From a virus, in the IMG/VR virus record IMGVR_UViG_3300009447_000061, positions 1-20,409 of that record: a stretch of DNA of 20,409 bases; one strand, 5' to 3'. Of this stretch, positions 1 through 20,409 are shown piece after piece. The notes under the pieces were generated by a model. That model searched no databases, was not told where the DNA came from, and saw only the letters and a list, made by a program, of their open reading frames with translations. Each line of letters begins with the position of its first letter. The first letter of the stretch is position 1. The position numbers and the translations under genes are program-made.

Positions 1-191
1 AATCTAGCAGAAACTCCAGATCCAGAAGTTGTTTGAACGGCTAAAGTCTCCCCGTCTTTAATTGCTAGAACGTCTATAATGCCAAATAGATCATGCCTAC
101 GCTTCGTGAAGCTACACCACCTCTCTACAACCTGTGCTGTATAGCCCTCGTCTCTGAGTAGCTTTAAAGTTCTTTGCGTGGGGCTACTCAT
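1..191 (-). CDS. Phage nuclease, PD-(D/E)XK-like (partial, C-terminus off the left edge)
   Basis: The first 63 codons of a gene that runs off the left edge. The ATG at 191-189 overlaps the TGA of the upstream exonuclease gene in an ATGA junction, which fixes the start and suggests translational coupling. The visible protein has an N-terminal helix (TQRTLKLLRDEGY), then a pattern around HDLFGIIDVLAI (D34, D40) and a strand ending AVQTT (Q53). That arrangement, with acidic residues before a strand carrying a Q/K position, resembles small phage nucleases of the restriction-endonuclease fold such as Holliday-junction-resolvase-like or VRR-NUC-like proteins. The rest of the fold is missing, so the family call is an inference. 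A role in phage DNA processing fits the exonuclease and SSB-like genes directly upstream. Confidence 0.6.
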   Translation of the reverse strand, partial: MSSPTQRTLKLLRDEGYTAQVVERWCSFTKRRHDLFGIIDVLAIKDGETLAVQTTSGSGVSAR

Positions 192-895
192 AAAATTCTT
201 TCTGCAATGCCTCTTTCCATTGCAACATCATTTGTTAGATACTTCAATGCTAGATTTACATCGGTCTTTAGAACTTCGTGAAAGTTTTTTCCTTCTACGC
301 CTTCAAATTTAAGCATCTCTTTACTTTTTATTTTCCCGCATCCTTCATCTTTACCAAAAAGCCCTAACTGCTTGCAAGCGTTCTCAGAACTACAGTAACT
401 TGGGTAGCTATCCCCAAACATGTAAATCTGTGAAAGGTCAACAAACTGATCTGTTAGGTAGCCTCTTGTATTGACTACAGCATGAGGAACTAAAACGCCA
501 AGCTTCCAGCTTCTAACAATAATATGCCTTGGATCAAAACATTCCTTATTGTTAGATCCGCTCCAATAGCACCAAGGATTATGACTTGTTCTAAAGTATC
601 CCCAAAACATTTCTAAAATTTCTTCTTCTGCAACTTCGCAAAGGACTTGCACCTCCCTAGATTGTGCCTTGTTTAATCCTATAGCGCAAATCTTGCTGGT
701 ATGAGGATTTAAAGCTGCCTTGTCTAACAGACTTTGCTTGTATCCTTTTTCTGCAGCTTCAAGTTTCGCTTCTATCTTTTCGGGGTCTTTTAAGTTCCCA
801 AGTTTTACGTCACTTGAGTTAAAAGGCTTTGCGAATTTCAGAATGTCATCATCTGAATAAGGTGCGGTTTCTATGTCGAAAATATTTGTTTCCAT
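188..895 (-). CDS. DnaQ-like 3'-5' exonuclease (RNase H fold)
   Basis: About 235 residues from the ATG at 895. Motif I (FDIET) appears within the first ten residues with the usual catalytic D and E. A middle region carries CFDPRHIIVR, close to the FDxxxLxxR pattern of motif II, and YLTNDVAMERG near the C-terminus matches the (Y)xxxDV motif III. These suggest a two-metal 3'-5' exonuclease for proofreading or DNA trimming, common in phage replication modules. A longer reading frame would begin at a GTG at 922, but that start lies inside a strong hairpin (914-953), so I prefer 895. The gene ends in an ATGA overlap with the nuclease gene and follows the SSB-like gene. Motif II is slightly atypical (GSNNKECFD rather than GHN..FD), so activity is probable but not proven. 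Confidence 0.75.
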   Translation of the reverse strand: METNIFDIETAPYSDDDILKFAKPFNSSDVKLGNLKDPEKIEAKLEAAEKGYKQSLLDKAALNPHTSKICAIGLNKAQSREVQVLCEVAEEEILEMFWGYFRTSHNPWCYWSGSNNKECFDPRHIIVRSWKLGVLVPHAVVNTRGYLTDQFVDLSQIYMFGDSYPSYCSSENACKQLGLFGKDEGCGKIKSKEMLKFEGVEGKNFHEVLKTDVNLALKYLTNDVAMERGIAERIL

Positions 896-913
896 GTCTT
901 TAAAAAATAATAA

Positions 914-953
914 GCCCCCCACCTAAAAAGAACGATAATTTTAGGAGGGGGGC
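914..953 (-). terminator. Long G/C-rich hairpin, terminator-like or leader attenuator
   Basis: Two 15-base arms (914-928 and 939-953) pair with one mismatch around a 10-base loop. Read on the minus strand the stem ends in GGTGGGGGGC and is followed by TTATTATTTTTT, the layout of a Rho-independent terminator. On the plus strand the stem is followed by a shorter T run (955-959). It lies between the SSB-like gene and the exonuclease, only about 18 bases ahead of the exonuclease ATG. It could end most late transcripts or attenuate downstream expression. I see no promoter in the short stretch between hairpin and start codon. Confidence 0.7.
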
Positions 954-978
954 AGTTTTTGTACACTACTACAAATTA

Positions 979-1566
979 TTAAAAGGGGATTTCTTCGATC
1001 TCTTCAACGTCTGCTTCTAACCCTGCGCTTGTTGGAGCTTCAACCTTGCCAGCTATCCAATCTGGAAGCTTGCTGAAAGCCTCTGGATCATGGTTGTAAG
1101 GATCATAAATTACAGGCGTTGCTTCTGGCTCAATTTTTTCTTTGCTTTCTGATGGCTCAACATCTGCAATATTAGCATAAATCCTTGATCCGTCTGCAGA
1201 GGTTTGATGCTTAATCTTGAGCATACAAGAAACGCCTAACAGCTTTTTAAGATCGAATCCCTGTAATTCTTCTTGGGTAAATTCTCGATCTCTCCAGCTT
1301 TCTAACAGCAAACGCAAAGAGGCTTTAGGAGCTAGAGAGCAAGTGAATGTTCTGCTGATTTGCGCTCTGCCTTCTTGTGTCTCTCCGTCTTTTGTCCACT
1401 CTCTAACAATAGAGGGGATTTCCCAAGTAACAATAACTTGGTTTTTTACACCATAGCTTGTTTCTTGTTCTCCAATTCCTGCAATAGTTACGCAAATTGC
1501 CTCATGCCTTCCTTTTGCGATTGGCTCGTAATCATTGCTCTTGCTACTATTTTCTTTTATAATCAT
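979..1566 (-). CDS. Phage ssDNA-binding-protein-like replication protein with acidic C-terminal tip
   Basis: A 195-residue protein. The core (about residues 15-137) looks like a single beta-rich domain with VTWEIP, an ISRTFTCSLAPKASLRLLLESWR stretch, and a WRDREFTQEELQGFDLKKLLG segment. I recognise this pattern from uncharacterised phage proteins that sit beside recombination and replication genes. After a Pro/Glu-rich linker the protein ends EEIEEIPF, which resembles the acidic DDDIPF tip that bacterial SSB uses to recruit repair proteins. A single-strand-binding or recombination-mediator role is therefore likely. Two TAA stops in tandem (981-979 and 978-976) end the gene. The ATG at 1566 has an A-rich leader with no Shine-Dalgarno match. 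The next genes, an exonuclease and a nuclease, support a DNA-metabolism role. Confidence 0.6.
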   Translation of the reverse strand: MIIKENSSKSNDYEPIAKGRHEAICVTIAGIGEQETSYGVKNQVIVTWEIPSIVREWTKDGETQEGRAQISRTFTCSLAPKASLRLLLESWRDREFTQEELQGFDLKKLLGVSCMLKIKHQTSADGSRIYANIADVEPSESKEKIEPEATPVIYDPYNHDPEAFSKLPDWIAGKVEAPTSAGLEADVEEIEEIPF

Positions 1567-1570
1567 CGGT

Positions 1571-1586
1571 TTTTATTTTTGTTGTT
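1571..1586 (-). promoter_or_regulatory. A-rich translation-initiation leader shared with the gene starting at 3576
   Basis: On the minus strand the 16 bases AACAACAAAAATAAAA sit just ahead of the SSB-like start. The identical 16-mer occurs at 3579-3594, ahead of the gene starting at 3576. Neither leader has a Shine-Dalgarno match. A-rich, SD-less leaders are known to be common in Bacteroidota, so this is probably a ribosome-loading signal. Confidence 0.45.
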
Positions 1587-1622
1587 TATGCCTTTTAGCG
1601 TTTTGCTTTTCGGCTTGTCGCA

Positions 1623-1922
1623 TCATTGCGATGCCCCAAGTTTTAGATTACTTTCGTGAAAAGATAAAGCTTCAAATAGCATTAAACAAAATAAAGCCAT
1701 GATTGCCACTTTCTTTTTTACATGCAATCCACCATATAAGGCGCAAATCACTTGGTCTAAATTGGTTATGATTTGCGGATCACTTTCTACAGTAGCAAAA
1801 ATAGGAACATCATCACCATAAGAGCAAACCATTACCACTCTTTTATCCAATGAGATTTCTATCCCGTGAGGCTGGGGATTCATTGTTAGCTCTGGATCTT
1901 CTTCAGCCGTGTAAGAATACAT
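1623..1922 (-). CDS. Small unknown protein with C-terminal membrane segment
   Basis: 99 residues from the ATG at 1922-1920. That ATG shares one base with the TAA of the upstream gene (TAATG), which decides the start over a TTG two codons upstream. The first two thirds are soluble and mixed in charge. Residues about 70-85 (KKKVAIMALFCLMLFEAL) form one hydrophobic helix behind three lysines, so a C-terminal anchor with a cytoplasmic N-terminus is plausible. I do not recognise the family. It is the last of three small genes between the lysis genes and the DNA-metabolism genes, so a lysis accessory or host-takeover role is possible but unsupported. Confidence 0.55.
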   Translation of the reverse strand: MYSYTAEEDPELTMNPQPHGIEISLDKRVVMVCSYGDDVPIFATVESDPQIITNLDQVICALYGGLHVKKKVAIMALFCLMLFEALSFHESNLKLGASQ

Positions 1923-2092
1923 TACCAATGCTTGTGATTAGCCTCAAAATATTTTTCGTCTGCCTCTCGCTTTAAATCCTCCAAGTTTTTTTTATTAACC
2001 TCGGAAAAGATCCAACTAACAAAAGCACAACAAAGACTAAAAATCATCAATGCGAATAAGAAATAAAGCCAAATTGTTACGGGTAGAGGCAT
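1922..2092 (-). CDS. Small single-TM protein
   Basis: 56 residues from the ATG at 2092, one base after the TAA of the preceding gene. A longer form from a TTG at 2137 would overlap that gene by 44 bases and is less likely. Residues about 4-27 (VTIWLYFLFALMIFSLCC onward) form one strong transmembrane helix. A charged, probably coiled, tail rich in K and E follows. One TM plus a charged helix fits a holin-like, antiholin-like or inner-membrane-spanin-like protein, but nothing in the sequence decides between them. It is coupled to both neighbours by near-overlapping stop and start codons. Confidence 0.55.
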   Translation of the reverse strand: MPLPVTIWLYFLFALMIFSLCCAFVSWIFSEVNKKNLEDLKREADEKYFEANHKHW

Positions 2093-2093
2093 A

Positions 2094-2303
2094 TTAATAT
2101 TTTGGTTTTCTGTTAGGAACTTGTCTTCCCCCAGCAATCATTTCGTAAGATGAAAAAGACTGCATGAATTTATCCGTAGTCATTTCTTCGCTTTCACATT
2201 TAATGATTGTAGGCTGAACATAAGAGGAAGGTCTGCTCCAAAATTCAGCAAGTCTTTCTTGCGGAGTTAGTTGCTCGCTTTCGCTGTTACATTTATGAGG
2301 CAT
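2094..2303 (-). CDS. Small soluble hypothetical protein
   Basis: 69 residues, starting at an ATG at 2303-2301. The protein is polar, has two cysteines and no hydrophobic segment, and ends basic (GGRQVPNRKPKY). I do not recognise a family. Continuous close spacing with its downstream neighbour (TAA T ATG) supports it being translated. The 42 bases upstream, back to the stop at 2346, are A/T-rich and contain one copy of the dispersed TTGTTAG heptamer (2335-2341). Confidence 0.5.
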   Translation of the reverse strand: MPHKCNSESEQLTPQERLAEFWSRPSSYVQPTIIKCESEEMTTDKFMQSFSSYEMIAGGRQVPNRKPKY

Positions 2304-2345
2304 GGCTATTAAAATGCAAACAAAAAATCAAAGGTTGTTAGAGAA

Positions 2346-2633
2346 TCAATCTCCTTCACGCCTGTTTAAACTTTTAGAAAGCTTATAGATAACATCTGAA
2401 AGCTTCTCATAGGATGCTGTATGTTCTAACCTTGCCAATCTCCTATCTTCCCGCTCATCTTTTAAAATCTCTTTTACTGTTTGTGTATGTTCCTTGTCTT
2501 GTGCTTTTAAGTGCCATTGGAAAGTTCCAATCAAAATAAATAATGCTGCAAAGATCATGCCAAGCAATCCCCCAGCTTCATTCCATGTTTCTAAATTAAG
2601 CTGCGAGGTTGCTAAAAATGTTAGGGCTATCAT
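2346..2633 (-). CDS. One-TM coiled-coil lysis-associated protein (holin- or spanin-like)
   Basis: 95 residues. The ATG (2633-2631) overlaps the amidase TGA (2632-2630) in an ATGA junction. Residues 20-42 (AGGLLGMIFAALFILIGTF) form a transmembrane helix. After it comes a long charged amphipathic helix (DKEHTQTVKEILKDEREDRR to the end). An N-terminal anchor with a long periplasmic or cytoplasmic helix is the layout of Rz-type inner-membrane spanins and of some small holin-like proteins. Position directly after the endolysin supports a lysis role, but the sequence alone does not separate the two options. Confidence 0.6.
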   Translation of the reverse strand: MIALTFLATSQLNLETWNEAGGLLGMIFAALFILIGTFQWHLKAQDKEHTQTVKEILKDEREDRRLARLEHTASYEKLSDVIYKLSKSLNRREGD

Positions 2634-3223
2634 ATTCCAAGATGAGTTTCTATTTTTGTAAGGCGTTCTTCAACTGTTAGAGATTTTTCTGAGTCGTAAT
2701 GCTCATTTACTAAAGACAAAAACCATTCCTTTTCTATCAAAGATCCGCAACAAGTTTTATTTGTTGTAGGATCATCACGATGAAAAAGAACGGTTTGATT
2801 GTCTGCTTTAAGGTGCATTTTTTTAAGCAAAATTGCAACTGTTAAAGCTGTTAGTTTAACTACTTCTAAACCTCTCCCCGTTTTAGGATCATCGCTTTCG
2901 TAATTGCCTAACATTTCGATTCCTATTGAATCCTTGTTAAAGCTCTTAGCGTGAACACCTCGCTTGTATAAACTACTCAAACCAAAGATTGCTTTTTCAT
3001 CTGTAAACAAGTGAGGTCCTGCTGACCACCCCAGAATATTTTTGTAGTGGTTTCTTAGGTTTTCTAAATGTTGCGTTTTCCAGCCGTTAGGGCGGTCTGC
3101 TAGATTGGGCGAGTAAGTATGGTGAACAGTAACAGATTTAGCCCAAGAGTTAATAGGTATTTGCTCAATATACAATTCAAACTCTGCAGGATTCCACGCC
3201 ATCCCTGTAAGCTCAAAGCCCAT
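2630..3223 (-). CDS. Endolysin: N-acetylmuramoyl-L-alanine amidase (Amidase_2 family)
   Basis: 197 residues. The fold matches zinc amidases of the T7-lysozyme/PGRP type, which cut the bond between N-acetylmuramic acid and L-alanine in peptidoglycan. VTVHHTYSP supplies H34/H35, GIEMLGNY (101-108) is the conserved central strand, LFHRDDP gives H148, and KTCCG gives K156 and C158. These correspond to the T7 zinc ligands (H, H, C) and the catalytic lysine two residues before the cysteine. The usual CPG is CCG here. There is no signal peptide, so export would depend on a holin. The C-terminal 20 residues form a short charged helix. The start at 3223 shares one base with the upstream TAA (TAATG), and the stop overlaps the next start, so it is coupled on both sides. 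Confidence 0.92.
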   Translation of the reverse strand: MGFELTGMAWNPAEFELYIEQIPINSWAKSVTVHHTYSPNLADRPNGWKTQHLENLRNHYKNILGWSAGPHLFTDEKAIFGLSSLYKRGVHAKSFNKDSIGIEMLGNYESDDPKTGRGLEVVKLTALTVAILLKKMHLKADNQTVLFHRDDPTTNKTCCGSLIEKEWFLSLVNEHYDSEKSLTVEERLTKIETHLGI

Positions 3224-3576
3224 TACTTGCTAGTTGTTGGATCTACAAAAAACTTAATGCCTCCCTTTGCGCTGTATTCGGCTTCTAAGCCGTCTTGCAT
3301 CTTGATCCCTATACTGAACGGCAAAGTGCCATTAGAACAGCTTACAAGCCCTAAAGAGATAAAAACGGATACGATAACTAACCCAACTCCACCCTTCATT
3401 TTCTCAATGATGGGTTTGCCGTATTTTGTGATTGCCCAAGTAGCGGAAGTGACAACTGCTAGAGCAATCCATTCGATTGCTTCGCTTGCTCCTTCCATTG
3501 GAAGATCGTATTTTTCGACAATGTAAAAAACTGCAATAACGATGCAGTGCCTTGCGTATGATAATAGTGGATTCAT
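3223..3576 (-). CDS. Membrane protein with internal lipobox, holin- or spanin-like
   Basis: 117 residues. Three hydrophobic stretches are visible at about 10-20, 34-51 and 63-79. The third ends LGLVSC (C80), a good lipobox match (L-V-S-C), followed by SNGTLPFSIG and a soluble tail. Two upstream TM helices followed by a lipobox is unusual. It could be a holin whose last helix merely resembles a lipobox, or a fusion of a holin-like part with a lipoprotein or spanin part. The gene directly precedes the endolysin and is coupled to it by TAATG, which supports a lysis role. The start is the ATG at 3576 behind the A-rich leader 3579-3594. Confidence 0.6.
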   Translation of the reverse strand: MNPLLSYARHCIVIAVFYIVEKYDLPMEGASEAIEWIALAVVTSATWAITKYGKPIIEKMKGGVGLVIVSVFISLGLVSCSNGTLPFSIGIKMQDGLEAEYSAKGGIKFFVDPTTSK

Positions 3577-3598
3577 AATTTTATTTTTGTTGTTAGAG

Positions 3599-4168
3599 TT
3601 ATCTTCCTTTTTTAGTTACTTTGCAATACCAGCCGTGAACATCTACTGTTAGATCATCTGCTGAACTAAGAATAAATTGCGCTGGATTTGTGATGGTGTT
3701 TGAGTTTCTCATGTAGATTCCATTGTATCTGATAACCGCAACCGCCCCAGCCGTTTTATGTTCTTGGTTTACTACGAATGGAACTGTAAAAGCTGTTCCT
3801 CCTTGCCCTAGCTCCATATCAATAGAAAAAGTTTGGTTTACTACAGAAGTAGTTACCTCAAGATCTAACCGAATATCAATCATGTCTCCGATATTTAATT
3901 CAGCAAAACCAAATCTGTTAGTTGCCGTGTTCCAGACATCAGTAACTTCTGTATCTGGCAAGTTTTTGTAGGTTTCTACTCCCGCCCCGTTATTGTTTAA
4001 TGCTATCGGAGTTCCTCCCGTTAGAGATTGCGGGGCTAGTGTGTTTCTATAATCAAAAATGCCAAAATCCCACAAGTCTGTGATTCCGATTGTTGATGAT
4101 TCCATTTTTTGAACTCCCAAGTTTGGAACGCCATTAGGAATGATAAATTTGTCTGCTGTTAGTGCCAT
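3599..4168 (-). CDS. Small phage structural protein at the tail tip (probable)
   Basis: 189 residues, predicted to be mostly beta strand with no signal peptide or TM. The middle (FGFAELNIGDMIDIRLDLEV) and the following alternating strands look like a jelly-roll or fibre-head domain of the kind found in small virion proteins of phages with Bacteroidota-like hosts. I cannot name a family. It lies directly downstream of the J-like gene with a 4-base gap, as receptor-binding or tip-accessory proteins often do, and upstream of lysis. An accessory fibre or receptor-binding role is inferred from place and composition only. Confidence 0.5.
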   Translation of the reverse strand: MALTADKFIIPNGVPNLGVQKMESSTIGITDLWDFGIFDYRNTLAPQSLTGGTPIALNNNGAGVETYKNLPDTEVTDVWNTATNRFGFAELNIGDMIDIRLDLEVTTSVVNQTFSIDMELGQGGTAFTVPFVVNQEHKTAGAVAVIRYNGIYMRNSNTITNPAQFILSSADDLTVDVHGWYCKVTKKGR

Positions 4169-4172
4169 GTTT

Positions 4173-6866
4173 TTAGTCTGTGTTTAATGTTACTTGATCT
4201 CCAAATTCGTCTTCTTCTAAATCAATTAGAATGTTAGCTGTTGGGGATTCGCTATCTGATAAGGTTGTAGGTGCATCTACTCTAACAGAGATTGTAGTTT
4301 TTTGTCCAGTATCACTTCCTGTAATGGTCGCTGCTACAGAAAGCATTACTTCTTCTTCTTCAATGTCATGATCTGCTGAAAGAGTAAAGCTAGATGTCGT
4401 GCTGCTAGAGTTGTTAGATATTTGGATGAAGGTTTCTCCGTCTAACGAATACTCAACTAAATAGCTTATAGCCCCCACTGCAGCATCCCAAGAAAAGGTT
4501 ACAAGTCTGGTTGTTTCGTTGTAGCTTGTTTGCTGCAGATTGGTGACAATAGGCGCAACTGGAATTGGATCTAAAGGCTCGTAATAAATTGGCGGGGCTT
4601 GGTCTGCATCTTTTTCAAATCTACCAAAGTTTTCAACTACACATTCAATAGTCATCTTGTCATAGCTGTTAGAAACGACTTTGTTTATTTTGCACAAATA
4701 GCCGTCATCTTCCAGAGGTCCGAAAATGTATATTGGATTTTGGTGTTTTTGCTCATCTATAGGAATTAAAAGCGGGTCTATCTGAACTAACGGATTTGCT
4801 AATTCAACTTGGTATTCTTCTCCCGCAACTGCCACCACCTCAAAAGGTCCGTATGACTCCCCATTCTTTTTTCTAAATATAATTGTGTGAGTTGCCCCTA
4901 TTGAGAAAACTGGTATTTCTGATAATGTGAAGATGCGGTTATTGTCTATCGCCTTTACATATCCATCTTGCCCGTTTTCTGAAACATCAGTGCAAACTTT
5001 TATAACATCTCCATAGGTCAAAGCGATTCCAGAATAATCAGTTTCAAATTTAATCTGCTGCCTATTGTAATACTCACTTGCCCAAAGATAATTTGTTAGC
5101 TTCTGCGCTTGATCTCTATTTGTTACGCCAGAGAGATTAATGGTTTTTGGATTTGATGCTGTTTGCGTTCCTATTGTGGCAACTACAGTTTCATTAGTCC
5201 AAGTTTCATGATCTAAATAGGTAGCCTTTAATCCGTCATTGAGATCATTATTCCAAATTCTTCTTGTTAGTTTCAAGCTTCCTTCAAGTATATTTTCTCT
5301 GTTGAAAATTGCTACAGGAATATTGCTTGGAATATCACGAATTACGCTGATCTTTCCCCCTACCATTATCGGAGTGCATCGGCAAACGAAACAACACATT
5401 TTAATAGCGTTCCAGACAGTCATTGATTTTGTAAATGACCAATCAAAAGTTTCTCCCGCTGCTTTCGCTTGAGCTACAGCGAACCTAATTGCGGGAATAT
5501 CCATAAGCTCTTGCTCTCGCCCTTCCATTCTGCCTCCCCAATCGGCTCTTAAAATACTTGTCATTGCCCAAATGGGATTTCTTGTTTCATCTGGGGCAAA
5601 TTCTGCAGCCCCTACCCAATCCGTAGCAAAGTCAGAAGTTAGAACTCTTACATTTCTTGTGCATAAAACTGTTACCTTGTTAGCTTGCGTGTTTTGAGAG
5701 GCTAAAGTTTCCATTGAGAACCAAGGGAAATCAAAATAAGTCAAATTTGTGTTGGCAGTTGCATCGACATTCCCTCTGTATCCTTTGCATAAATCCCAAT
5801 TATAAGAATTATTTCCTTTGCCGTCTGTTATTTCTTTATTTGTTCTAATGCCTCTTATCTCCCATCTTGCTGCATAGGGGGCATTTGCATAAAGAGTAAA
5901 TCTTTGCGCTTGTGCGGTTTGGAAGCTTCTTGAATAGCTTGTAAGAGTAGCCCACCCTCCAACTGGATTGCTGTCTTTATCAATTTCTCTTATCTCAAAT
6001 CTAACCCCAAAACTAACAGAACGCATCTTTCCTTCTTTGTTCATTCTATATCCACCATTTGGCAGACTTATATCATTTGCGATTTGCTGAATGGTAGTGT
6101 TAGGCGGGTTGATTTTGAAAGGTCCTACATAGCCAGTATAACCATTTTGGTTAGATGCTATCATTTGTATGCTGTTAACCTGTCTGCAAAGACTTATATT
6201 ATTATGACCATGACGAGTAAGCCTTGAGTTTGGACTGTTACCAAAAATCCCAAGTGTATCATACAAAACATTATCGTTATCCTCTGTTCTCGCATCATCT
6301 AACAAAACAACTTCTTGCTCCCATTCTGCAGGGTAGGGCGGGTTTCCAGAAAAGTAATAAACCCCATGACCTAACGTAAACCTTTGGTATAGATATTGAT
6401 TATTGTCCTTATACAAGGTGTAAGGTTGCATTATGTATGAAGGATAAACTTTGTTAGTTCCAAAATTATCTTCAATAGGTTGATTCAGTCTTGCTTGGTT
6501 TTTTTGTCCATCAATACTAAACACTGGATCTCCGCTTTCTGGAGTATCTTGTGCTGCGGGGCTAACAAGAAACAAAACTGCAATCACTAACAGAATTACA
6601 ACAATAGCTATTATTATCGTTATCGGTTCTCCTATGTTTACGATGAAACAAATCTTATCATTCTCTTCTAATTCAACCTCCCCCCATTCTTCTCTTAATG
6701 GGTGAAATCTGTCTTCTCCCCTCATCAAAACGCACATCCAAGGAGTTTCCTCCCATTCTCCTAGCATCTTGTTAGCACACTCTAACAGCGTTCCTTCTGC
6801 CTTGTAATTAATGCACCTAGTTGCGTGTGGATCTTGTGCGTCTTCTGTTATTGTTACTAAAGCCAT
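4173..6866 (-). CDS. Tail tip central protein, gpJ-like host-specificity protein
   Basis: 897 residues. The first 75 residues form a small ubiquitin-like region. One strong TM-like segment follows at 81-101 (PITIIIAIVVILLVIAVLFL). After it, the motif around FSIDGQKNQARLNQPIEDNFG begins the large beta-rich body typical of lambda J and related baseplate hub proteins. A phage-tail-3-like section lies near residues 420-600, and a fibronectin type III-like domain near 770-860 (YNETTRLVTFSWDAAVGAISYLVEYSLDG). The N-terminal hydrophobic segment suggests a gpI-like part fused to J. The protein would close the tail tube tip, and its distal end contacts the receptor. The start overlaps the NlpC/P60 gene by 10 bases, and the I/K/J gene order supports the call. 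Confidence 0.85.
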   Translation of the reverse strand: MALVTITEDAQDPHATRCINYKAEGTLLECANKMLGEWEETPWMCVLMRGEDRFHPLREEWGEVELEENDKICFIVNIGEPITIIIAIVVILLVIAVLFLVSPAAQDTPESGDPVFSIDGQKNQARLNQPIEDNFGTNKVYPSYIMQPYTLYKDNNQYLYQRFTLGHGVYYFSGNPPYPAEWEQEVVLLDDARTEDNDNVLYDTLGIFGNSPNSRLTRHGHNNISLCRQVNSIQMIASNQNGYTGYVGPFKINPPNTTIQQIANDISLPNGGYRMNKEGKMRSVSFGVRFEIREIDKDSNPVGGWATLTSYSRSFQTAQAQRFTLYANAPYAARWEIRGIRTNKEITDGKGNNSYNWDLCKGYRGNVDATANTNLTYFDFPWFSMETLASQNTQANKVTVLCTRNVRVLTSDFATDWVGAAEFAPDETRNPIWAMTSILRADWGGRMEGREQELMDIPAIRFAVAQAKAAGETFDWSFTKSMTVWNAIKMCCFVCRCTPIMVGGKISVIRDIPSNIPVAIFNRENILEGSLKLTRRIWNNDLNDGLKATYLDHETWTNETVVATIGTQTASNPKTINLSGVTNRDQAQKLTNYLWASEYYNRQQIKFETDYSGIALTYGDVIKVCTDVSENGQDGYVKAIDNNRIFTLSEIPVFSIGATHTIIFRKKNGESYGPFEVVAVAGEEYQVELANPLVQIDPLLIPIDEQKHQNPIYIFGPLEDDGYLCKINKVVSNSYDKMTIECVVENFGRFEKDADQAPPIYYEPLDPIPVAPIVTNLQQTSYNETTRLVTFSWDAAVGAISYLVEYSLDGETFIQISNNSSSTTSSFTLSADHDIEEEEVMLSVAATITGSDTGQKTTISVRVDAPTTLSDSESPTANILIDLEEDEFGDQVTLNTD

Positions 6867-7781: not shown

Positions 7782-7803
7782 GGCTTAAAATTCTAAATTT
7801 ATA

Positions 7804-9507: not shown

Positions 9508-9508
9508 A

Positions 9509-12500
9509 TTATTTTCTATTTAATCCGTAGTTAGTTTCCAATGCTGGAACAAAATCACCGCCTCCTTCTCTGGCTTCGTTTGTTAATTCAATCTTAGCTT
9601 GTGCTACTGCTTGCTCAACAATTATCTTAAAGTTGCCTTCCTCGTCTTGCTCTACTTCTCCCTCTAACTGAACAGGGGCATTGTTTACTATTGTAACATT
9701 GCCTCCGCTTTTACCTCCCGCTATTGGGTTGTTAGCTTGAGCGAAAAGATTTCTTTGCTGAGTCTTGTTTAGAATCATTTCCCCGCTATTAACTCTGCCT
9801 GTTAGCTGGTCACCTCCAAATGAAGAACCGCCAACAATACCGCCTTGCTGGTATGCTGGGGGCTGTTGAGATTTTATCTGCGCCACTTGAGCCAATCCGA
9901 AAGCAATGCTTCCCGCTGCAGCTATGTAGTTGAATGGCGGGGGAATGGTAGCCATAGCCTTAGTGGCACTTTGAAAAGTGTTTACTGTAGCCTCTGCGAT
10001 TGCAAAAGCTTGTTGCGCTTTAAATCCCTTTTTGCCAAATGCCTTAGCAAGTGCGCTCATGCCTCCAAAAAGCTCTTTTGTAGCATCAAGCTTTTGATTC
10101 ATTTCCTCTCTTGCAATCGCTTTTCTTACCTCTACTCCGTCTGCATCAATTTTATTTATTAACTCGTTTTTTTGCTCATGAGTTAGCCTTGTAGATTCGT
10201 CTATAAGGGTTCTCTTTTCTTCTTCATGAATAGCAAGCAACTCTAATTCCGTTGCGTATTGCCTACTAATCATTTCAACTTGTGAGTTAATCCTTTCCTC
10301 GTCTTGTTCTGCGCTTGAAGTGCTAGTTGCTTTTTCTTTGTCTGGCTCTATGTCTTTATTGAATAGATCAGTTGCTCTTTGCAAATAAAGGGCTTCTTCC
10401 TCTGGATCAAATTCGCCTTTTTGAATTTGTGTTACTGTATTGGTATAGTTGATGGAGGCTCTTTCTTCTTTTGTTGCAAGCTGCCCTCTAATTGATTCCC
10501 TGTTTACTAAAGCTGCGCTTTTCCCTGCCTCTGCAGTTTGCTGTTTTAGGATGCCTAATTGATTTTCTAAAAGATTTTTTATTGCTTGCTCTGCAGCGGT
10601 TAGCTCTTCTTTTTGCGCCAATAGATCATCAAAAGCAGTAAGCTTCTTTTCAAGAAGTGCTATGTTTTTATCGGTGTTTTCATTTAAAATTGCATCAACC
10701 CTAATCTGTGCGCTGCCAAGCTCTAAGGCTCTTTCTCCTATCTTTATTGCTTCCGCATTATATCTAACAACATCGCCAAATAAAGTTGCGTATATTTGCC
10801 CAAAAGCCTTAACCCTTCCTTCTATTTCTGCGTAAGACTGTTTAAGTTTTTCTGTCTCAGCTTTCCATTCTTCAGTAGTGATTTTAGAATCTTTTAGAAG
10901 TTGGTTGAGTCTTTCAACTTCAACCGCAATTTTAAATTGCTCTTGTTTAATCTGCCCTCCTGCACCTCCTATTCTTTTATAAACACCAAGTTGGATTTCT
11001 AACTGTTTTGTTGCCTCTACTTCTTCAGCAACTCTATTTCTTGCGCTTTTAAGATTTGCAAGATCAGATAGCCCTTTCTTGTATTCAGCTAGAGTTATTT
11101 TGCCCCTATTTAGGTTGTCAGCCATTATCTTTAAAGATGCTGAAACCTTTTCAATGTCTGCATCTAACGCATCTAACCCCTCTTGCCCTCCGTAGCCTTG
11201 GGTTATTTCTCTCTGCATTGCTAATGCCTTTTCAGCCTTTAAAACTCTCGCTGCAATTTCTATTTGCTTTGCCCCTGCCAATGCTCTTTTATCTGCTGAA
11301 TCTTTTATAGCTGCGCTATACCTTGCTAAATCTAACGCTCCGTCATCTAGTGTTTTGCCAAAGTTTTTAACTTGCTGCTCTGCGCCTTGACCTAAGAAAA
11401 TAAACCTTCCAACAATAGCGGGGAATTGCTGCAAAGCTTCCACGTAAGCACTGAAAATTTCTGGATCGGCTACTATGTCTGCTAGTCTTGCAATAGATCC
11501 AGAAAGCCCTTCGTTAGCTCCTGTAGCTTGGTTTGCGTTTTCAGCAAAAATCAAAAACGAGTTGCCAAGCTTCTTAAATGAAGTTCCTAAAGTTTCCCCT
11601 GCTATTTTAGAAGCTGCTGCCGTATCTCCAGAAGCCTTGCCAACTTCCTCAATAGCCTTTTTTGTTTCTCCTAATTTAGCCCCCGTAATGGCTGCTGTTA
11701 GGCTGTATGCCTCAATAGATCTTAGAGCCTTTACTAGAACTTGATCACTTCCACTTGCAGCCAATCTAACTTGCTCTAAAGCTCCCGCTAATCCTTCTTG
11801 CTCAATTAAAGCTCTGCCACCCTCAACGCCTAACTTCTCATAGATTGCAGCCATCGTTTCAGATGGATTCAATAGTGCTACAACTGCAGCTTTAACTTGT
11901 GTGAAACTCTCAGCCGTTTTAACCCCCTGCTTTGTAGTTGCTGCAGTAATGCCTAACAGTTCCTCTAGGCTAACTCCCGCTGTAGCTGCTGTAGCGGATG
12001 CTCTGGCAAGGCTCTTGGCTAATTGTGGAATGTTTGTCTTGCCTAGCTTTACTGTTCTAAATAATTGGTCACTTACTTTTTCAGCTTCGCTAGCTGATTT
12101 TCCATAACTGTTTAATGCAGTTGTTAGAAGGTCTGTAGAAGATCCAATATCTGCCAAACCGCCTTGCGCTAATTGCGCTGCAACTCTAACAAATTTATCA
12201 ACTTCGCCAGTAGGAACTCCCGCTGAAATTGCTTGGTAAAAACCTTGCGCTGCCTCTGTAGCATCAACCCCTAATGCTTGAGCTATTCCAAGAGCTTTAA
12301 GCCTTAGACCATCCATTTCTTTTCCGCTAACCCCCGCAATGGTTTGCACTTCCTTCATGGCTACATTAAACTTTAGCCACTGTGCTGTAGTTTTTGCAAT
12401 CGTTACCCCAACTGCAGTAACTCCAATAGCCATAGCCCCAATGGCAAGCCTAGAAGCCGTTGCCCCCGCTCCTACTTTATCAAGCGATGATTTCCCGCTA

Positions 12501-12586
12501 GTGCCTAAAGTGTTTAGCTTTGCTCTGGCTTCGTTTATACCAGTCGAATCAACTGTTAGTCTTAATCTTGCTACGTCTTCAATCAT
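9509..12586 (-). CDS. Tape measure protein (TP901-1 type)
   Basis: 1025 residues. It sets tail length and is expelled into the cell at infection. By the usual rule of about 1.5 angstrom per residue it would span about 150 nm. Residues about 45-65 are a hydrophobic helix, and about 70-330 match the TP901-1 tail-tape core (AQALGVDATEAAQGFYQAIS, TKQGVKTAESF). Residues about 400-830 are long charged coiled coil, about 890-915 a hydrophobic helix (FNYIAAAGSIAFGLAQVAQI). The C-terminal GGIVGGSSFGGDQLTGRVNS plus GEMILNKTQQRNLF is the signature seen in many tape measures. The start overlaps the end of the -1 frame chaperone by 8 bases, which couples their translation. Confidence 0.95.
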   Translation of the reverse strand: MIEDVARLRLTVDSTGINEARAKLNTLGTSGKSSLDKVGAGATASRLAIGAMAIGVTAVGVTIAKTTAQWLKFNVAMKEVQTIAGVSGKEMDGLRLKALGIAQALGVDATEAAQGFYQAISAGVPTGEVDKFVRVAAQLAQGGLADIGSSTDLLTTALNSYGKSASEAEKVSDQLFRTVKLGKTNIPQLAKSLARASATAATAGVSLEELLGITAATTKQGVKTAESFTQVKAAVVALLNPSETMAAIYEKLGVEGGRALIEQEGLAGALEQVRLAASGSDQVLVKALRSIEAYSLTAAITGAKLGETKKAIEEVGKASGDTAAASKIAGETLGTSFKKLGNSFLIFAENANQATGANEGLSGSIARLADIVADPEIFSAYVEALQQFPAIVGRFIFLGQGAEQQVKNFGKTLDDGALDLARYSAAIKDSADKRALAGAKQIEIAARVLKAEKALAMQREITQGYGGQEGLDALDADIEKVSASLKIMADNLNRGKITLAEYKKGLSDLANLKSARNRVAEEVEATKQLEIQLGVYKRIGGAGGQIKQEQFKIAVEVERLNQLLKDSKITTEEWKAETEKLKQSYAEIEGRVKAFGQIYATLFGDVVRYNAEAIKIGERALELGSAQIRVDAILNENTDKNIALLEKKLTAFDDLLAQKEELTAAEQAIKNLLENQLGILKQQTAEAGKSAALVNRESIRGQLATKEERASINYTNTVTQIQKGEFDPEEEALYLQRATDLFNKDIEPDKEKATSTSSAEQDEERINSQVEMISRQYATELELLAIHEEEKRTLIDESTRLTHEQKNELINKIDADGVEVRKAIAREEMNQKLDATKELFGGMSALAKAFGKKGFKAQQAFAIAEATVNTFQSATKAMATIPPPFNYIAAAGSIAFGLAQVAQIKSQQPPAYQQGGIVGGSSFGGDQLTGRVNSGEMILNKTQQRNLFAQANNPIAGGKSGGNVTIVNNAPVQLEGEVEQDEEGNFKIIVEQAVAQAKIELTNEAREGGGDFVPALETNYGLNRK

Positions 12587-12911
12587 GTAAACTATTCAGT
12601 TGGATTTGGTCTATAATTCTAATTGCTTTAATTTCAAAATTGCTTAGTTCAATTCCTGTTAGGTTTGACCAGCAAGCAATCTCATTAAAGTCTATAGCCT
12701 TATCTGTTTTTAATTCTTGGTAATATTGTAAAATATATAATAGGCGATCTGGTAACGGCTTTAATTCTTCTAACTCTTTTGGCTTAACTCCTGTAGTTTT
12801 CCAAACTTGCTTTAGGTGTTCTACTTGGCTTGTGCTACTGCCTTCTGGTCTTTTTTGGAGCTTAAATTGTTCTTCTGCAAATCGCTCGATTCGTCTAAGC
12901 TCCTTTTGATA
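12579..12911 (-). CDS. Tail assembly chaperone, GT-type extension read by -1 frameshift
   Basis: 110 codons in the -1 frame relative to the upstream chaperone, with no ATG or other good start of its own. The protein reads ELRRIERFAEEQFKLQKRPE, VEHLKQVWKTTGVKPKELEE, then LPDRLLYILQYYQEL, with DFNEIACWSNLTGIELSNFE and IKAIRIIDQ near the end. The W..LTG..L...E...I...D ending matches the T-part of phage tail assembly chaperones. Fused to residues 1-129 of the upstream protein it gives about 239 residues. In lambda, gpG and gpGT together hold the tape measure for tube assembly. The position directly before the tape measure fits this. The stop (12581-12579) lies 8 bases inside the tape measure gene. 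Confidence 0.8.
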   Translation of the reverse strand, partial: YQKELRRIERFAEEQFKLQKRPEGSSTSQVEHLKQVWKTTGVKPKELEELKPLPDRLLYILQYYQELKTDKAIDFNEIACWSNLTGIELSNFEIKAIRIIDQIQLNSLHD

Positions 12912-13297: not shown

Positions 13298-13315
13298 GTT
13301 TTTGTTTTAATTAGT

Positions 13316-13344
13316 GTGCGTGATTATCGCTAGGGAATACGCAC
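13316..13344 (-). promoter_or_regulatory. Hairpin between tube protein and chaperone genes
   Basis: GTGCGT (13316-13321) pairs with ACGCAC (13339-13344). ATT/AAT extends the stem around a one-base bulge to nine pairs with a 10-base loop. On the minus strand it is not followed by a T run, so it is not a clear Rho-independent terminator. Its place directly after the major tail protein gene suggests a role in mRNA processing, stability or partial termination that keeps the tube protein in excess over the chaperones. Confidence 0.4.
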
Positions 13345-13370
13345 CCCTCCCAGCATGAGGCAGAAAAGAA

Positions 13371-14312
13371 TTAAACTGCCGAGCGATCTATTTGTATGTT
13401 AGATAATACTGTTGTATCATCAACCAGTGCTTGGAATGGCACTGCAAGGGTGATTGCACCCGCTCCGCTCACATCGGGGTTAGCCCCTCCTGTATAAGTG
13501 ATGCGAGGAATCAAAAATTCATATTTGTTAGTTCCATCGTTAAGTTCAAACTCAAGGCTTGATTCTGTCTCGTTAATGAACTTTTCAACCTGTTGGGCGT
13601 TCTCAAAATACATGGTTGCTTGTCCTGTTAGGGTGGAACGTCCGATAGTTGGATATTCAGTTAGATCTGATCCAACTACGTTGCGAGGCTCAAGCCCATT
13701 TTCAAGAGTCAGAGTAAGTTCCGTAATGATTGAAATAACAGAGCCGTCTACTTTAACAGATCCAGTAAATCCGTTGAAAGGACAGTTTGCGCTAGTTGTC
13801 CCTAGGGTTGATCCTGCTGGCTCTGTCTGGTTTACTGACATATCACGCCCAATAGTTCCAAAAGAGCCTGTGAGAGTGCCTACGGGGGCTACAGTTAGGT
13901 TAAGAGTGTTATACTCTACTCCCGTGTAAATATAGTAAGGCTTATCCGCTGCAAGCTGATCTGAGAAATGGCGCATTAAGCTAAAGCTTCTGCGAGTAAC
14001 TCCACCCTTCAAGCGGTCAATATCAGTGCCGCCTCCGTCAACTTCCCAAGTGCCTAACAGAACAGCTTCTAGCTCTTCGTCATAAGATCCATAGGAAATT
14101 TCAAAGCCAATATCTCCAGCTACGGCTTTGACCCCGTGCTTGGCACATTTGATTTGGCGATCTTCTCTTAGCTCTTCGCTAACAGTGATATCTTTCGACA
14201 TTCCAAGACTAACAGCCGTATGGCGTAGCTTTTTGAATGAAGGAGTTGCGGGTGTTACCCCGTAAGTTGATTCCTCTACAGAGTAAAGGGCATGGCGTGA
14301 AGCATCTGACAT
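13371..14312 (-). CDS. Major tail (tube) protein
   Basis: 313 residues. It begins SDASRHALYSVEESTYGVTP and continues FKKLRHTAVSLGMSKDITVS, the usual opening of phage tail-tube proteins. It then has alternating beta strands with DIGFEISYGSYDEELEAVLL, a segment of short-loop beta hairpins, and a C-terminal strand pair (FLIPRITYTGGANPDVSGAG, then ITLAVPFQALVDD). Such proteins stack as hexamers to form the tube, and they are the most abundant tail component. Position between the tail terminator and the chaperone/tape measure genes is standard. The start at 14312 follows an A-rich leader. The 73 bases downstream, before the chaperone start, carry only a hairpin. Confidence 0.9.
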   Translation of the reverse strand: MSDASRHALYSVEESTYGVTPATPSFKKLRHTAVSLGMSKDITVSEELREDRQIKCAKHGVKAVAGDIGFEISYGSYDEELEAVLLGTWEVDGGGTDIDRLKGGVTRRSFSLMRHFSDQLAADKPYYIYTGVEYNTLNLTVAPVGTLTGSFGTIGRDMSVNQTEPAGSTLGTTSANCPFNGFTGSVKVDGSVISIITELTLTLENGLEPRNVVGSDLTEYPTIGRSTLTGQATMYFENAQQVEKFINETESSLEFELNDGTNKYEFLIPRITYTGGANPDVSGAGAITLAVPFQALVDDTTVLSNIQIDRSAV

Positions 14313-14333
14313 AATATTTTTTGTGTTTGGTGT

Positions 14334-14759: not shown

Positions 14760-14762
14760 AAT

Positions 14763-15194: not shown

Positions 15195-15197
15195 GAT

Positions 15198-16658: not shown

Positions 16659-16663
16659 TATTT

Positions 16664-18180
16664 TTAAGATGGGCTATCAGTTGAGTAAGTAGAACCATTG
16701 TTAGTTCCATCATTTGTTCCCGCATGATCTAAAACGTCATCGCTGTTAGTTAGCCATTGACCAATTAGGTTAGTTCTATCTGTTGTGCCATTGTAGATGT
16801 CTAGGATTTGAGAAGCTGTTAGGTCAGTATCGTAGATGCGAACATCTGCATATTTCCCGTCTGCATAGGTTGTAGCGTATCTTCCAATGTAAACATTATT
16901 AGCTGTGTTTACATCCATAGCTCCGTAGCCTGCAGATCCAAAATCCGCATTGTCAACTTGAACGCCATTTACATATAACTTTAAACCCAACCTAAAGTTT
17001 TCTCCCCCGCTTCCGTCATAGGTAGCTGATACGTGTAGCCATTCATTCTCTGGTAGTGGGGTTGTGTATTCTCTACCTCTAAATACTCCACCATCTATTA
17101 AATAGATATTTAAGTTGCCCCCAGCATCAGTAGCTAAAAGCCATTCTCTATCAGAGCCTATACCATTATCCTTACCCAATACTCTAAATGTTGAATTATC
17201 ATCAATTTTCAACCATGTGCTGAGAGAAAAAGGTTCGTCATTGTTTCCATCTGAAAAACTAAACTCAGTGGAGTTACCTAAATTGACATGATCACTAACA
17301 CCATCAAAGTCACGGCTTGCTTGCCTAGATGGAACTAGATCCATAGGAGGGTTATCATACGAGTAAGTAGAACCAAAGTTAGTGCCGTCATTAGTTCCAG
17401 CCTTGTCTTCTACGTCATCGTTATCTGTTAGCCAATGTCCTGCAAGATTTGTTTGAACATCTGTGCCAGAGTAAATGTCAGAAACTTGGGAAGCTGTTAG
17501 GTCAGTATCGTAATATCTAACATCTGCAATCTTGCCGTCTTGAAAAAAGTTTGCGTTGGTTAACGCATTATAAGCTCCAATAACTACGCTTGCGGTTGAT
17601 GTCGTTATTGTCCCGTCAAATGCAGTGGTGTTTTCTAAGTTCCCGTTTATATAGATTTTTATTTCGCTTCCGTCAACTGTAGCTGCAAGATGAAACCATT
17701 CACCAACTGAAGCATCGGTTGTAGAGGTGCAAATAATATTTGTATTGTTGGTTTGCCTTATAAGAAATCTAACATCTGTTTCCCCTGTAAACAAAACCCA
17801 ACTTATGCCCCCACCCCCACTGCCAGAGTCAAATTTTGAGATTACACCCTTTCCAAAACTAGCATCTGTTGTTTCTTTTTTAATCCAAGATGAAACACTA
17901 AACACTGTGTCTCCGCTAAATATATTTCCAAGATCAACATAATCATTAACACCATCAAAGCTACGGCTTGCACTGCCAAACTCTACAGGTGGTGAGGGGT
18001 TATCATATGAATACTTTGATCCGTAGTTAGTGCCGTGATTTGTTCCCGCAGCATCTAGCAAGTTGTCTGCATCTGTTAGCCAGTGACCTACAAGATTTGT
18101 TTGAACATCTGTGCCAGCGTATAGGTCAGAAACTTGGGAAGCTGTTAGGTCAGTATCATAGATTCTAACATCTGCCATTT
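16664..18180 (-). repeat. Three diverged direct DNA repeats linking LamG domains
   Basis: About 150-180 bases recur near 16674-16840, 17352-17530 and 18001-18180. All three copies encode the end of a LamG domain and the linker DLTASQV/I-DLYxGTDVQTNLxGxWLTxxD. A shared stretch is GAAGCTGTTAGGTCAGTATC on the plus strand near 16812, 17495 and 18140. A shorter repeat (acaccatcaaagctacggctt and close variants) opens the domains near 17300, 17950 and 18630. The copies look like in-frame duplication of a whole domain-plus-linker unit, so unequal recombination could add or remove domains. Confidence 0.75.
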
Positions 18181-18334
18181 TCCCATTAATGTGATTTAAT
18201 GGAGTTGTTGGGTTAGTCAAAAAACCTAACCCTAATTCGTTTGCAGCGTTTCCAGTGGCGGTATGTTGGTAGTTGTAACTCCCTATAAATGTCCCGTCTC
18301 TATAAGCTGAAATAGTAGATCCATCTGAACTCAA
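16664..18334 (-). CDS. LamG-domain adhesin, downstream part of an interrupted gene
   Basis: 556 residues counted from a TTG at 18334, but the frame is open back to codon 18379 and continuous with the gene ending in TGA at 18380-18382. It opens mid-domain (DGSTISAYRDGTFIGSYNY), completing the LamG domain begun upstream, and then carries two more complete LamG domains (about residues 118-300 and 338-520). Codons just before the TTG read GWHHWAL, the conserved W-H-x-A strand of LamG. The true protein is therefore probably one 683-codon frame with a stop inside. No promoter or ribosome-loading leader is visible near 18334. Whether this part is translated depends on readthrough or on the stop being an error. 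Confidence 0.6.
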   Translation of the reverse strand: MSSDGSTISAYRDGTFIGSYNYQHTATGNAANELGLGFLTNPTTPLNHINGKMADVRIYDTDLTASQVSDLYAGTDVQTNLVGHWLTDADNLLDAAGTNHGTNYGSKYSYDNPSPPVEFGSASRSFDGVNDYVDLGNIFSGDTVFSVSSWIKKETTDASFGKGVISKFDSGSGGGGISWVLFTGETDVRFLIRQTNNTNIICTSTTDASVGEWFHLAATVDGSEIKIYINGNLENTTAFDGTITTSTASVVIGAYNALTNANFFQDGKIADVRYYDTDLTASQVSDIYSGTDVQTNLAGHWLTDNDDVEDKAGTNDGTNFGSTYSYDNPPMDLVPSRQASRDFDGVSDHVNLGNSTEFSFSDGNNDEPFSLSTWLKIDDNSTFRVLGKDNGIGSDREWLLATDAGGNLNIYLIDGGVFRGREYTTPLPENEWLHVSATYDGSGGENFRLGLKLYVNGVQVDNADFGSAGYGAMDVNTANNVYIGRYATTYADGKYADVRIYDTDLTASQILDIYNGTTDRTNLIGQWLTNSDDVLDHAGTNDGTNNGSTYSTDSPS

Positions 18335-18379
18335 CGCCCAATGATGCCAGCCAGAATCGGGAACGCAATTATCAATTTT

Positions 18380-18382
18380 TCA
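18380..18382 (-). other. Single in-frame TGA inside a LamG domain
   Basis: Minus-strand codons read TTA GAC GAC TGA AAA ATT GAT AAT TGC, with the same frame open for 111 codons before and 571 codons after. The protein on both sides belongs to one LamG domain (IIYNANQAQLDD, stop, KIDNCVPDSGWHHWAL). TGA serves as an ordinary stop elsewhere in the window (188, 1623, 2346, 2630, 12579), so a changed genetic code is unlikely. Possible explanations are a point mutation, a sequence error or programmed UGA readthrough. Confidence 0.8.
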
Positions 18383-18715
18383 GTCGTCTAATTGTGCTTG
18401 ATTGGCATTGTATATAATAAATCGTATTCCGTTAGACTGAGTCCCCGTCCTGTTGTCAAGCTGAAGTAAAAACCCCCTGCTGTTTCCAGCGTAATTGTTA
18501 GCGACCAATGCCCCAGCATTATTAGTGTTATACTCGTCCCATTTAGCCCATAACGTGATAGTAAAAACCTTGCTTATATGAATAAAGTTAAAGCTGCTTG
18601 TTGTGCCTATAGAATCAACATTATCATCAACACCATCAAAGCTACGGCTTCGATTTCCAAAGCCGTCAAATGTTAGAGCCTCGCCCCCGTGAATATATGG
18701 ATTGATTATATCCAT
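18380..18715 (-). CDS. LamG-domain adhesin, upstream part truncated by in-frame TGA
   Basis: 111 residues from the ATG at 18715, which shares one base with the upstream TAA (TAATG). It opens with NRSRSFDGVDDNVDSIG and VFTITLWAKWDEYNTNNAGA, the first half of a LamG-like domain, and stops at TGA before the conserved WHHxA strand. The fragment alone would not fold as a complete jelly roll. It should be read together with the frame downstream (16664-18334) as one 683-codon protein with three LamG domains. It follows an unidentified gene and belongs to the adhesin block. Confidence 0.65.
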   Translation of the reverse strand: MDIINPYIHGGEALTFDGFGNRSRSFDGVDDNVDSIGTTSSFNFIHISKVFTITLWAKWDEYNTNNAGALVANNYAGNSRGFLLQLDNRTGTQSNGIRFIIYNANQAQLDD

Positions 18716-19293
18716 TAAATCATTCCGTCTGGATCAACTGCAGGAGGAACGTAATTAAATAGCTCGTAGCAGTGGAGTCCATAGAGAACCATGTCAGCAT
18801 GGAATTGCTCAACTGTTAGACCAATGGAAGCCCCTAGAACATCTTTAACAACTAGAGCTTGTTCGCTAGGCATTTGGGTTTCATTAACCAATGTAAGCAT
18901 ACGAGTAAATGCGTTTTGTGCATCAACCGCAACATCGTATTTGATAGTTGTGTTAGGGCTTAAAAAATGAGCTGGAATTTTAGCATCAATTTCATCTTGT
19001 GTTAGGTCGACAACTTCAAAGCTTTGAATTGTTGCAGTCTCGTTAGCCACATCGTAATTAACGGGAAGCCTTTTGATTTTCTGAGTTGAAGAATCATAGC
19101 TTGGCTGTGCCTCTTTAACTTCAATAAGCCACTTAATATTATCAGCCAAGAAAGGAATCATTTCTGAAGTATCGTTAGATCCCCACTTGAGTCCTGTCAT
19201 TGGTTTCCCGCTGCCGTCTTTTAGAGGTGCGGAGGTGTTTGTATCATAGACAGTAAACCTGTCAGATTCTTGGATTGGATATGTGATAGCCAT
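18715..19293 (-). CDS. Hypothetical phage protein between tail-fibre and adhesin genes
   Basis: 192 residues, no signal peptide or TM. The N-terminal 60 residues are beta-rich with TNTSAPLKDGSGKPMTGLKWG. The middle is mixed with a helix-rich stretch (LTQDEIDAKIPAHFLSPN, DAQNAFTRMLTLVNETQMPS), and the C-terminus ends YVPPAVDPDGMI. I do not recognise the family. Position between the tail fibre and the LamG adhesins suggests a fibre-associated or fibre-chaperone role, but this is inference. The leader holds TTGTTAG (19303-19309 on the plus strand) and an A-rich stretch with no Shine-Dalgarno match. The stop shares one base with the next start (TAATG). Confidence 0.6.
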   Translation of the reverse strand: MAITYPIQESDRFTVYDTNTSAPLKDGSGKPMTGLKWGSNDTSEMIPFLADNIKWLIEVKEAQPSYDSSTQKIKRLPVNYDVANETATIQSFEVVDLTQDEIDAKIPAHFLSPNTTIKYDVAVDAQNAFTRMLTLVNETQMPSEQALVVKDVLGASIGLTVEQFHADMVLYGLHCYELFNYVPPAVDPDGMI

Positions 19294-19312
19294 TTTTGTT
19301 TTTTGTTAGTTT

Positions 19313-20409
19313 TTAATCCCATGAGATAAGCAAATCGCAATGCAATCCCGCTCCCCCCGCTGTAGTTGTATCTACTTCAAATTCAAATTTATCTCCAGCA
19401 TTAAAAGTAGTTGGATTAGTTGTTAGAACCGCTGGAGTCGCTGCAGTGGAAGTATCCGTTTGTGCATCATCAATAGTTATAGCAGTTGAGAAAATTGTAG
19501 TTCCTGTTTTATGAACGTCTAGTGCTAATGCGCTTCCGTTAGTTGCGCTTGCTGCCCCCGCTGCAACTGCATGAACTTTACCCTTTGCGGGGGCATACCA
19601 AGTATTTTTAATGCCAATAGTTGCATCTGCAGTTTCATTCCCTAGCTTCCAGCTATACCAGTTTTGTAATAGGCTGTTAGAATACTTTAAACGGATGCCA
19701 AGTAGCCTTGCATCTTGCGAAGCTGCAGTAGCTCCCGCTGCTGCTCTTGCAATCTCAAGGTGTAGAATATCGCCATCTTCAGCACTACCGCCCACTGTGA
19801 TAGACGAGGCTGTGATTTGGTGTATGTCTCCATCTGCAATGATAGGATCGTCTAGCGTTGCTGTAGGGGCAGGGAAAGCTACATCCCAAGCATCATCATT
19901 ACCCCCAGCTTGCGAAGCCACCTCCCATTTGACATTTTCTCCGATTGTCCCGCCTGTGATTGTCCAATAAAGTTCTACATCAATTACGCCTTTATCCCAT
20001 TGAGGGGGCATTGCAATTTTAGCATATAGAGTTTCTCCCGTTGCTACGTTATACCAGTCAACTGAGTTGTTAGTTCCGTTATCAGTTCCAGTGCTTGCGT
20101 CTGCCTCCCCGTCTTTGGCTAGCATCGCTCCCGCATCAATATAAACGGAAGTTTCCGCTGTTAAAGCACTGCCACCACCTCCAGCGTTGTCATCTACATA
20201 TTTCTTAGTTGCTGGATGAAAGTTTGCTGAAGGAGTGAATGAAATTGTATTATCTAACTCTAACACATTAGCTTTTGTTGCTAGTGCTGAAAGATCTTGG
20301 TCACCTGTATTTGTTCCAGTGATTGCGTCTAGCTTGGTTTTATCACCATCCACGAAAGCACCCTCCAAGGGTTTGACTTGCAGCCCCGACAAATCTTGAT
20401 CTCCTGTAT
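19313..20409 (-). CDS. Tail fibre protein (partial, N-terminus off the right edge)
   Basis: At least 364 residues. The frame stays open to the window edge, so a TTG start at 20392 is only apparent. Residues at the edge read TGDQDLSGLQVKPL, and GTNTGDQDLSALATKAN follows some 30 residues later, so the N-terminal part is a repeat of GDQDLS units typical of tail-fibre shafts. ATKKYVDDN is the usual end of such a shaft. The C-terminal 115 residues (WYSWKLGNETADATIGIKNT onward, ending TAGGAGLHCDLLISWD) form a beta sandwich tip, probably the receptor-binding or trimerising head. It is the first gene in transcription order here and probably follows other fibre or head genes beyond the edge. Confidence 0.75.
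   Translation of the reverse strand, partial: TGDQDLSGLQVKPLEGAFVDGDKTKLDAITGTNTGDQDLSALATKANVLELDNTISFTPSANFHPATKKYVDDNAGGGGSALTAETSVYIDAGAMLAKDGEADASTGTDNGTNNSVDWYNVATGETLYAKIAMPPQWDKGVIDVELYWTITGGTIGENVKWEVASQAGGNDDAWDVAFPAPTATLDDPIIADGDIHQITASSITVGGSAEDGDILHLEIARAAAGATAASQDARLLGIRLKYSNSLLQNWYSWKLGNETADATIGIKNTWYAPAKGKVHAVAAGAASATNGSALALDVHKTGTTIFSTAITIDDAQTDTSTAATPAVLTTNPTTFNAGDKFEFEVDTTTAGGAGLHCDLLISWD

Follow-up and report, generated by a model that had tools for sequence, protein, structure and literature searches.

Introduction

Cluster A mycobacteriophages carry stoperators, tens of rather long sites that lie mainly in short intergenic gaps and have a known repressor. The uptake sequences of Neisseria (DUS) and Haemophilus (USS) are host signals of 9-12 bp, and we know of no phages that gather such sequences at the density reported below. 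Another close case is that of Chi: lambdoid phages without recombinases over-represent it, with a median observed/expected ratio of 3.1, and in these Rec-minus phages its density is that of the host, 0.2/kb (Bobay et al., 2013; PMC3784561).

Here we describe the heptamer CTAACAR, of which a literature search found no published description, in a marine phage group represented by a fragment of a tailed phage from an IMG/VR record (the window, that is, the whole stretch of 20,409 bases analyzed, 1..20409). Like Chi in recombinase-less lambdoid phages, it is a short, non-palindromic, over-represented word in phages where no recombinase was recognized, its reading would be strand-biased and its copies would act singly. 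It differs in the word itself, in its density (3.5 per kb against 0.2, a factor of about 15), in filling half of the places that the proteins permit, and in being known from phage sequence and not from enrichment in a host. Like stoperators (PMC9283540), its sites are asymmetric, scattered and for the most part point in the direction of transcription; unlike stoperators, CTAACAR amounts to some 130 sites of 7 bp in a 42 kb relative, most of them intragenic (5 of 72 are extragenic in the window), and we found no repressor. As with uptake sequences, the sites are dense, dispersed, non-palindromic and tolerated within genes.

Results

The word and its sites

The window holds the structural genes and part of the replication block of a tailed phage, nearly all on the minus strand, which is the coding strand for essentially all of them. 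The products include a tail tape measure protein (9509..12586, -), a lambda J-like tail tip protein (4173..6866, -), a tail completion protein, an N-acetylmuramoyl-L-alanine amidase that is likely the endolysin (2630..3223, -), laminin-G repeat proteins and a tail protein (13371..14312, -) that served as query for relatives. The laminin-G tail protein is split into two ORFs (16664-18334 and 18380-18715), possibly by a frameshift or a sequencing error, and corresponds to long single ORFs in the relative G007. In the replication block lies an exonuclease-like gene (188..922, -), called exonuclease in the initial annotation, that gave no family match here.

By eye, about 72 copies of CTAACAR had been seen against about 7 expected, some 72% of them on the coding strand, and exact counting agrees: 52 copies lie on the minus and 20 on the plus strand (72% coding), with about 7 expected under a dinucleotide model (2.8 for CTAACAG and 4.4 for CTAACAA). 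This amounts to 3.5 dispersed, non-palindromic sites per kb, or one every 285 bases or so. The hexamer CTAACA (63 and 26 copies on the two strands) is the most over-represented in the window, and all its one-letter neighbors occur at near expected counts, pointing to a sharp specificity of 6-7 bp. The seventh base is a soft preference, with A and G well above C and T intermediate, and T is also favored before the word.

The use of several reading frames and of short gaps, already remarked upon, is borne out. On the coding strand, CTAACA occurs 33 times in codon phase 0 and 26 times in phase 1, and TGTTAG occurs in phases 1 and 2. The five wholly extragenic copies of CTAACAR fall within just 802 bases of non-gene sequence: two are in intergenic gaps (2335..2341, - and 12656..12662, -), two in the leaders upstream of the genes at 3223-3576 (3590..3596, -) and 18715-19293 (19303..19309, -), and one, the only one on the plus strand, lies outside the genes used for the gap count (2016..2022, +). 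The impression that leucine CTA codons of the exonuclease gene are chosen for the motif holds in part, as two are indeed CTA ACA, but the frame (188-901) has four CTA codons and not all are followed by ACA. Spacing of the copies is near random once the protein-permitted places are considered; the even spacing hinted at by the window alone disappears in that comparison, and helical phasing or regular spacing is absent from the window's phage group.

Selection beyond codon and protein constraints

When synonymous codons were permuted, keeping every protein and the codon usage, CTAACA was expected 13.7±3.4 times on the coding strand of the window, where it occurs 60 times, and 8.4±2.4 times on the other strand, where it occurs 26 times. 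Shuffles that also kept the dinucleotides at codon junctions gave 18.4 and 7.9. CTAACA is the top hexamer under the codon-permutation null as well. The codon-preserving shuffles thus fail to reproduce the count, and the view that the word is a selected signal at the DNA level, and not a codon by-product, is upheld.

The proteins of the window permit CTAACA at 116 places on the coding strand, and it is present at 59 of them (51%), with the two usable frames behaving alike (33/62 and 26/54); the tail tip gene by itself uses 15 of its 30 permitted places. On the template strand the figure is 24/69 (35%). Among 241 random other hexamers, the median use of permitted places is 8.5% and the maximum 30%. 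Three relatives match the window, giving 301/596 coding and 158/439 template places over the four genomes, with template use ranging from 30 to 42%. After this correction for opportunity, the strand bias is 51% versus 36% (Fisher p = 4e-6, for genomes that are not independent). The bias noted initially is therefore real but smaller than it appeared, since part of the 72% coding share arises because the proteins permit the word unequally on the two strands. The directions of replication and of transcription cannot be separated as its source.

Conservation and turnover in relatives

We retrieved relatives from IMG/VR with the window's tail protein (13371..14312). All close relatives (78-100% identity in that protein) carry the CTAACAR enrichment, so that this second check proposed in the initial annotation does not refute a selected signal either. 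In every larger close relative examined no hexamer outranks CTAACA; more distant relatives (46-51%) are not enriched. The 42.3 kb record G007, where the protein read at the two ends of the record overlaps, contains 133 copies of CTAACAR versus 11 of a reversed control word. Between the window and G005, which are 79% identical in nucleotides, 44 of 60 sites are common (73%, versus 34% for other hexamers), placing CTAACA first in conservation among 205 common hexamers. In relatives at 65-69% nucleotide identity only 24-38% of the sites are common; most have moved, yet their overall number is maintained (37 versus 31 and 33 versus 32). The CTAACA sites are under purifying selection with turnover. 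Selection thus acts on CTAACAR as a DNA word, genome-wide and on either strand, across this phage group.

Outside the group, we found no enrichment in the Acinetobacter phages with the nearest terminase (~60% identity) or in Pseudomonas phage PMBT14, and densities of only 0.1-0.5 per kb in 11 phages of marine or Arctic Flavobacteriia (hosts Cellulophaga, Maribacter, Polaribacter, Tenacibaculum, Nonlabens, Flavobacterium and Croceibacter). As a separate observation, AGCGG, the Chi word of Bacillus subtilis, is also biased toward the coding strand in the window, G004, G005 and G007, much more weakly than CTAACAR (in the window, 16% of permitted places coding versus 3% template).

The host

Shine-Dalgarno (SD) sites are nearly absent from the window's phage group (6% of genes), much as in a phage of the Bacteroidota genus Cellulophaga (8%), whereas Acinetobacter phages reach 61% and a Pseudomonas phage 58%. 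The gene leaders are A-rich. SD-poor leaders point to a host in Bacteroidota or in another SD-poor phylum. The terminase is nearest to that of Acinetobacter phages, yet the window, G004 and G007 have almost no SD sites, which hints that this lineage has adapted to a host poor in such sites.

The bacterial genomes scanned were all Pseudomonadota, and the leaders suggest another phylum. None of 369 gammaproteobacterial and 399 Pseudomonadota genomes (some common to both sets) had a host-like density of CTAACAR, the highest dispersed density being about 0.40/kb (G765) versus 3.5/kb in the phage. A tiny gammaproteobacterial genome of about 350-352 kb (G289:C1) is rich in CTAACAA and CTAACAG, with 391 copies; we rejected it as host because the copies lie partly in short head-to-tail runs and are missing from its two family members.

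A second phage group with the same word

A triple-motif scan of IMG/VR returned mostly tandem repeats. Further scans for three nearby copies gave three contigs, L224, L239 and L257, unrelated to the window's phages (L257 has its own terminase; L224 and L239 carry PhoH-like genes). Since the word itself was the query that led to these contigs, its presence in them is not independent evidence; a lysozyme that L257 and G007 share at 69% identity is. The second group is SD-poor as well. Here CTAACAR reaches 8-9 per kb outside ORFs and 0.1-1.5 inside, and the arrays show spacings of about 10-11, 20-22, 33 and 44 bp, near whole helical turns. Inverted pairs of the form CTAACAG-A5-CTGTTAG adjoin terminator-like hairpins. 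The intergenic pattern is weaker in the relatives L436 and L437, and in G392, a 134 kb record, the copies are concentrated in one block at about 64-75 kb.

Discussion

The word CTAACAR as such must serve the phage, probably as a signal read by a host enzyme. Our preferred reading, to which we give a probability of roughly 40%, is that the host's end-resection enzyme takes the word as a Chi-like polarity signal. Linear or broken phage DNA would meet an enzyme of the RecBCD or AddAB type, as can be supposed because no recombinase or nuclease inhibitor is visible; upon reading CTAACAR the enzyme would stop degrading and start recombination, the phage would keep the word wherever its proteins allow, and one strand would hold more copies as reading is directional. 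Several observations lead us to infer a host enzyme as the reader, and a resection nuclease as that enzyme. Neither a recombinase, a polymerase, a Gam/Abc-like protein nor a RecBCD inhibitor appeared among the scanned proteins of the window, G007 and G004 (their small ORFs being partly scanned), and phages without recombinases over-represent Chi. The word is short, non-palindromic and in excess of what codons and proteins impose, its orientation is biased (by the 51% versus 36% of permitted places in those non-independent genomes), and it is identical in relatives at 65-69% identity with different DNA-modification genes. This independence from the modification genes and, plausibly, from the phage's own DnaA-like protein (see below) favors a host reader, and near-random spacing is what copies that are each useful by themselves should show. 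Against a Chi-like signal stand the Pseudomonadota scanned, among which no genome comes near the phage's density, the published Chi density of Rec-minus phages, which is far below that of CTAACAR, and the intergenic arrays of the second group (at ~10-11/20-22 bp), which look more like protein-binding sites.

The main rival comes second and is somewhat doubtful: that a DNA-binding protein made in abundance by the host or the phage, with an architectural, silencing, segregation or stoperator-like role, recognizes CTAACAR and coats the genome. The sharp 6-7 bp specificity would suit such a protein, as would the arrays of the unrelated SD-poor group, whose three densest contigs have 8-9 copies per kb at near-helical spacings, and mycobacteriophage stoperators are an earlier example of asymmetric sites that are dispersed (PMC9283540). 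However, the window's group has neither helical phasing nor regular spacing, and stoperators are much less numerous and lie mainly between genes. One small DNA-binding candidate exists in every relative covering the region, a protein made of DnaA domain IV only (L034, 15093-15434, adjoining DnaB; homologs in G001, G004, G005 and L059). We discarded it as the reader, since the residues of its recognition helix vary between close relatives (NHAT versus DSST) and the word remains identical.

Recognition by a DNA-modification or restriction enzyme, with many modified sites protecting the phage, is improbable. Some relatives do carry modification genes: in G004, G005 and L051, FolE, QueD, QueE and a DpdA-like transglycosylase adjoin a ParB-like protein, forming a 7-deazaguanine DNA modification cassette (25578-29667 in G004, loci L039/L040), and G007 has instead a pair of GNAT and ATPase genes that we read as Mom-like, although the HMM match is to GNAT acetyltransferase only. 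But relatives that share the word have different modification genes or none, so that no cognate enzyme is conserved with it; G007 has the word without the 7-deazaguanine genes, which eliminates that system as the cause, and phages normally avoid restriction sites instead of gathering them.

The initial annotation had proposed either a DNA-level signal (for recombination, uptake, modification or packaging) or an RNA element on transcripts, and it is the first that our data sustain. An element acting in the transcript (in protection, translation or processing, for example) could account for the higher use of the coding strand and for the copies in the leaders of relatives (12 in 69), but it is quite unlikely, for template use is 30-42% against a median of 8.5%, and sense copies in mRNA cannot be the whole target.

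It is more unlikely still that these phages picked up a DNA uptake sequence of their host. CTAACAR is short, dispersed and non-palindromic, and the inverted pairs near terminator-like hairpins in the second group recall uptake-sequence terminators; nonetheless, close pairs of this kind are few in the window's group, and phages would gain little from uptake words. Lastly, that codon usage, codon-pair bias or base composition produced the word as a side effect has almost no probability left: protein sequence adds a little, through an excess of L-T dipeptides (65 versus 43 expected), but codon usage and pair bias are refuted by shuffles that recover roughly between a quarter and a third of the copies, by the equal use of both coding frames and by the enrichment on the template strand and in gaps.

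Taken at its broadest, our tentative proposal, which may well not hold in full, is that CTAACAR is a new host-read DNA word, which unrelated phages of a marine, SD-poor bacterium have accumulated until it fills half of the permitted positions. If true, it would be an unusually dense signal of self-identification, and phage sequence would suffice to read it. Only a few lineages have a known Chi or a similar word, and a phage group with the word at half of its permitted positions would reveal that word without any work on the host, while matching of words could help to identify the host itself. Such a group also shows that a short DNA word can constrain codon choice across a whole genome. Should the reader be something other than a resection nuclease, it would be a novel protein with dense, genome-wide binding.
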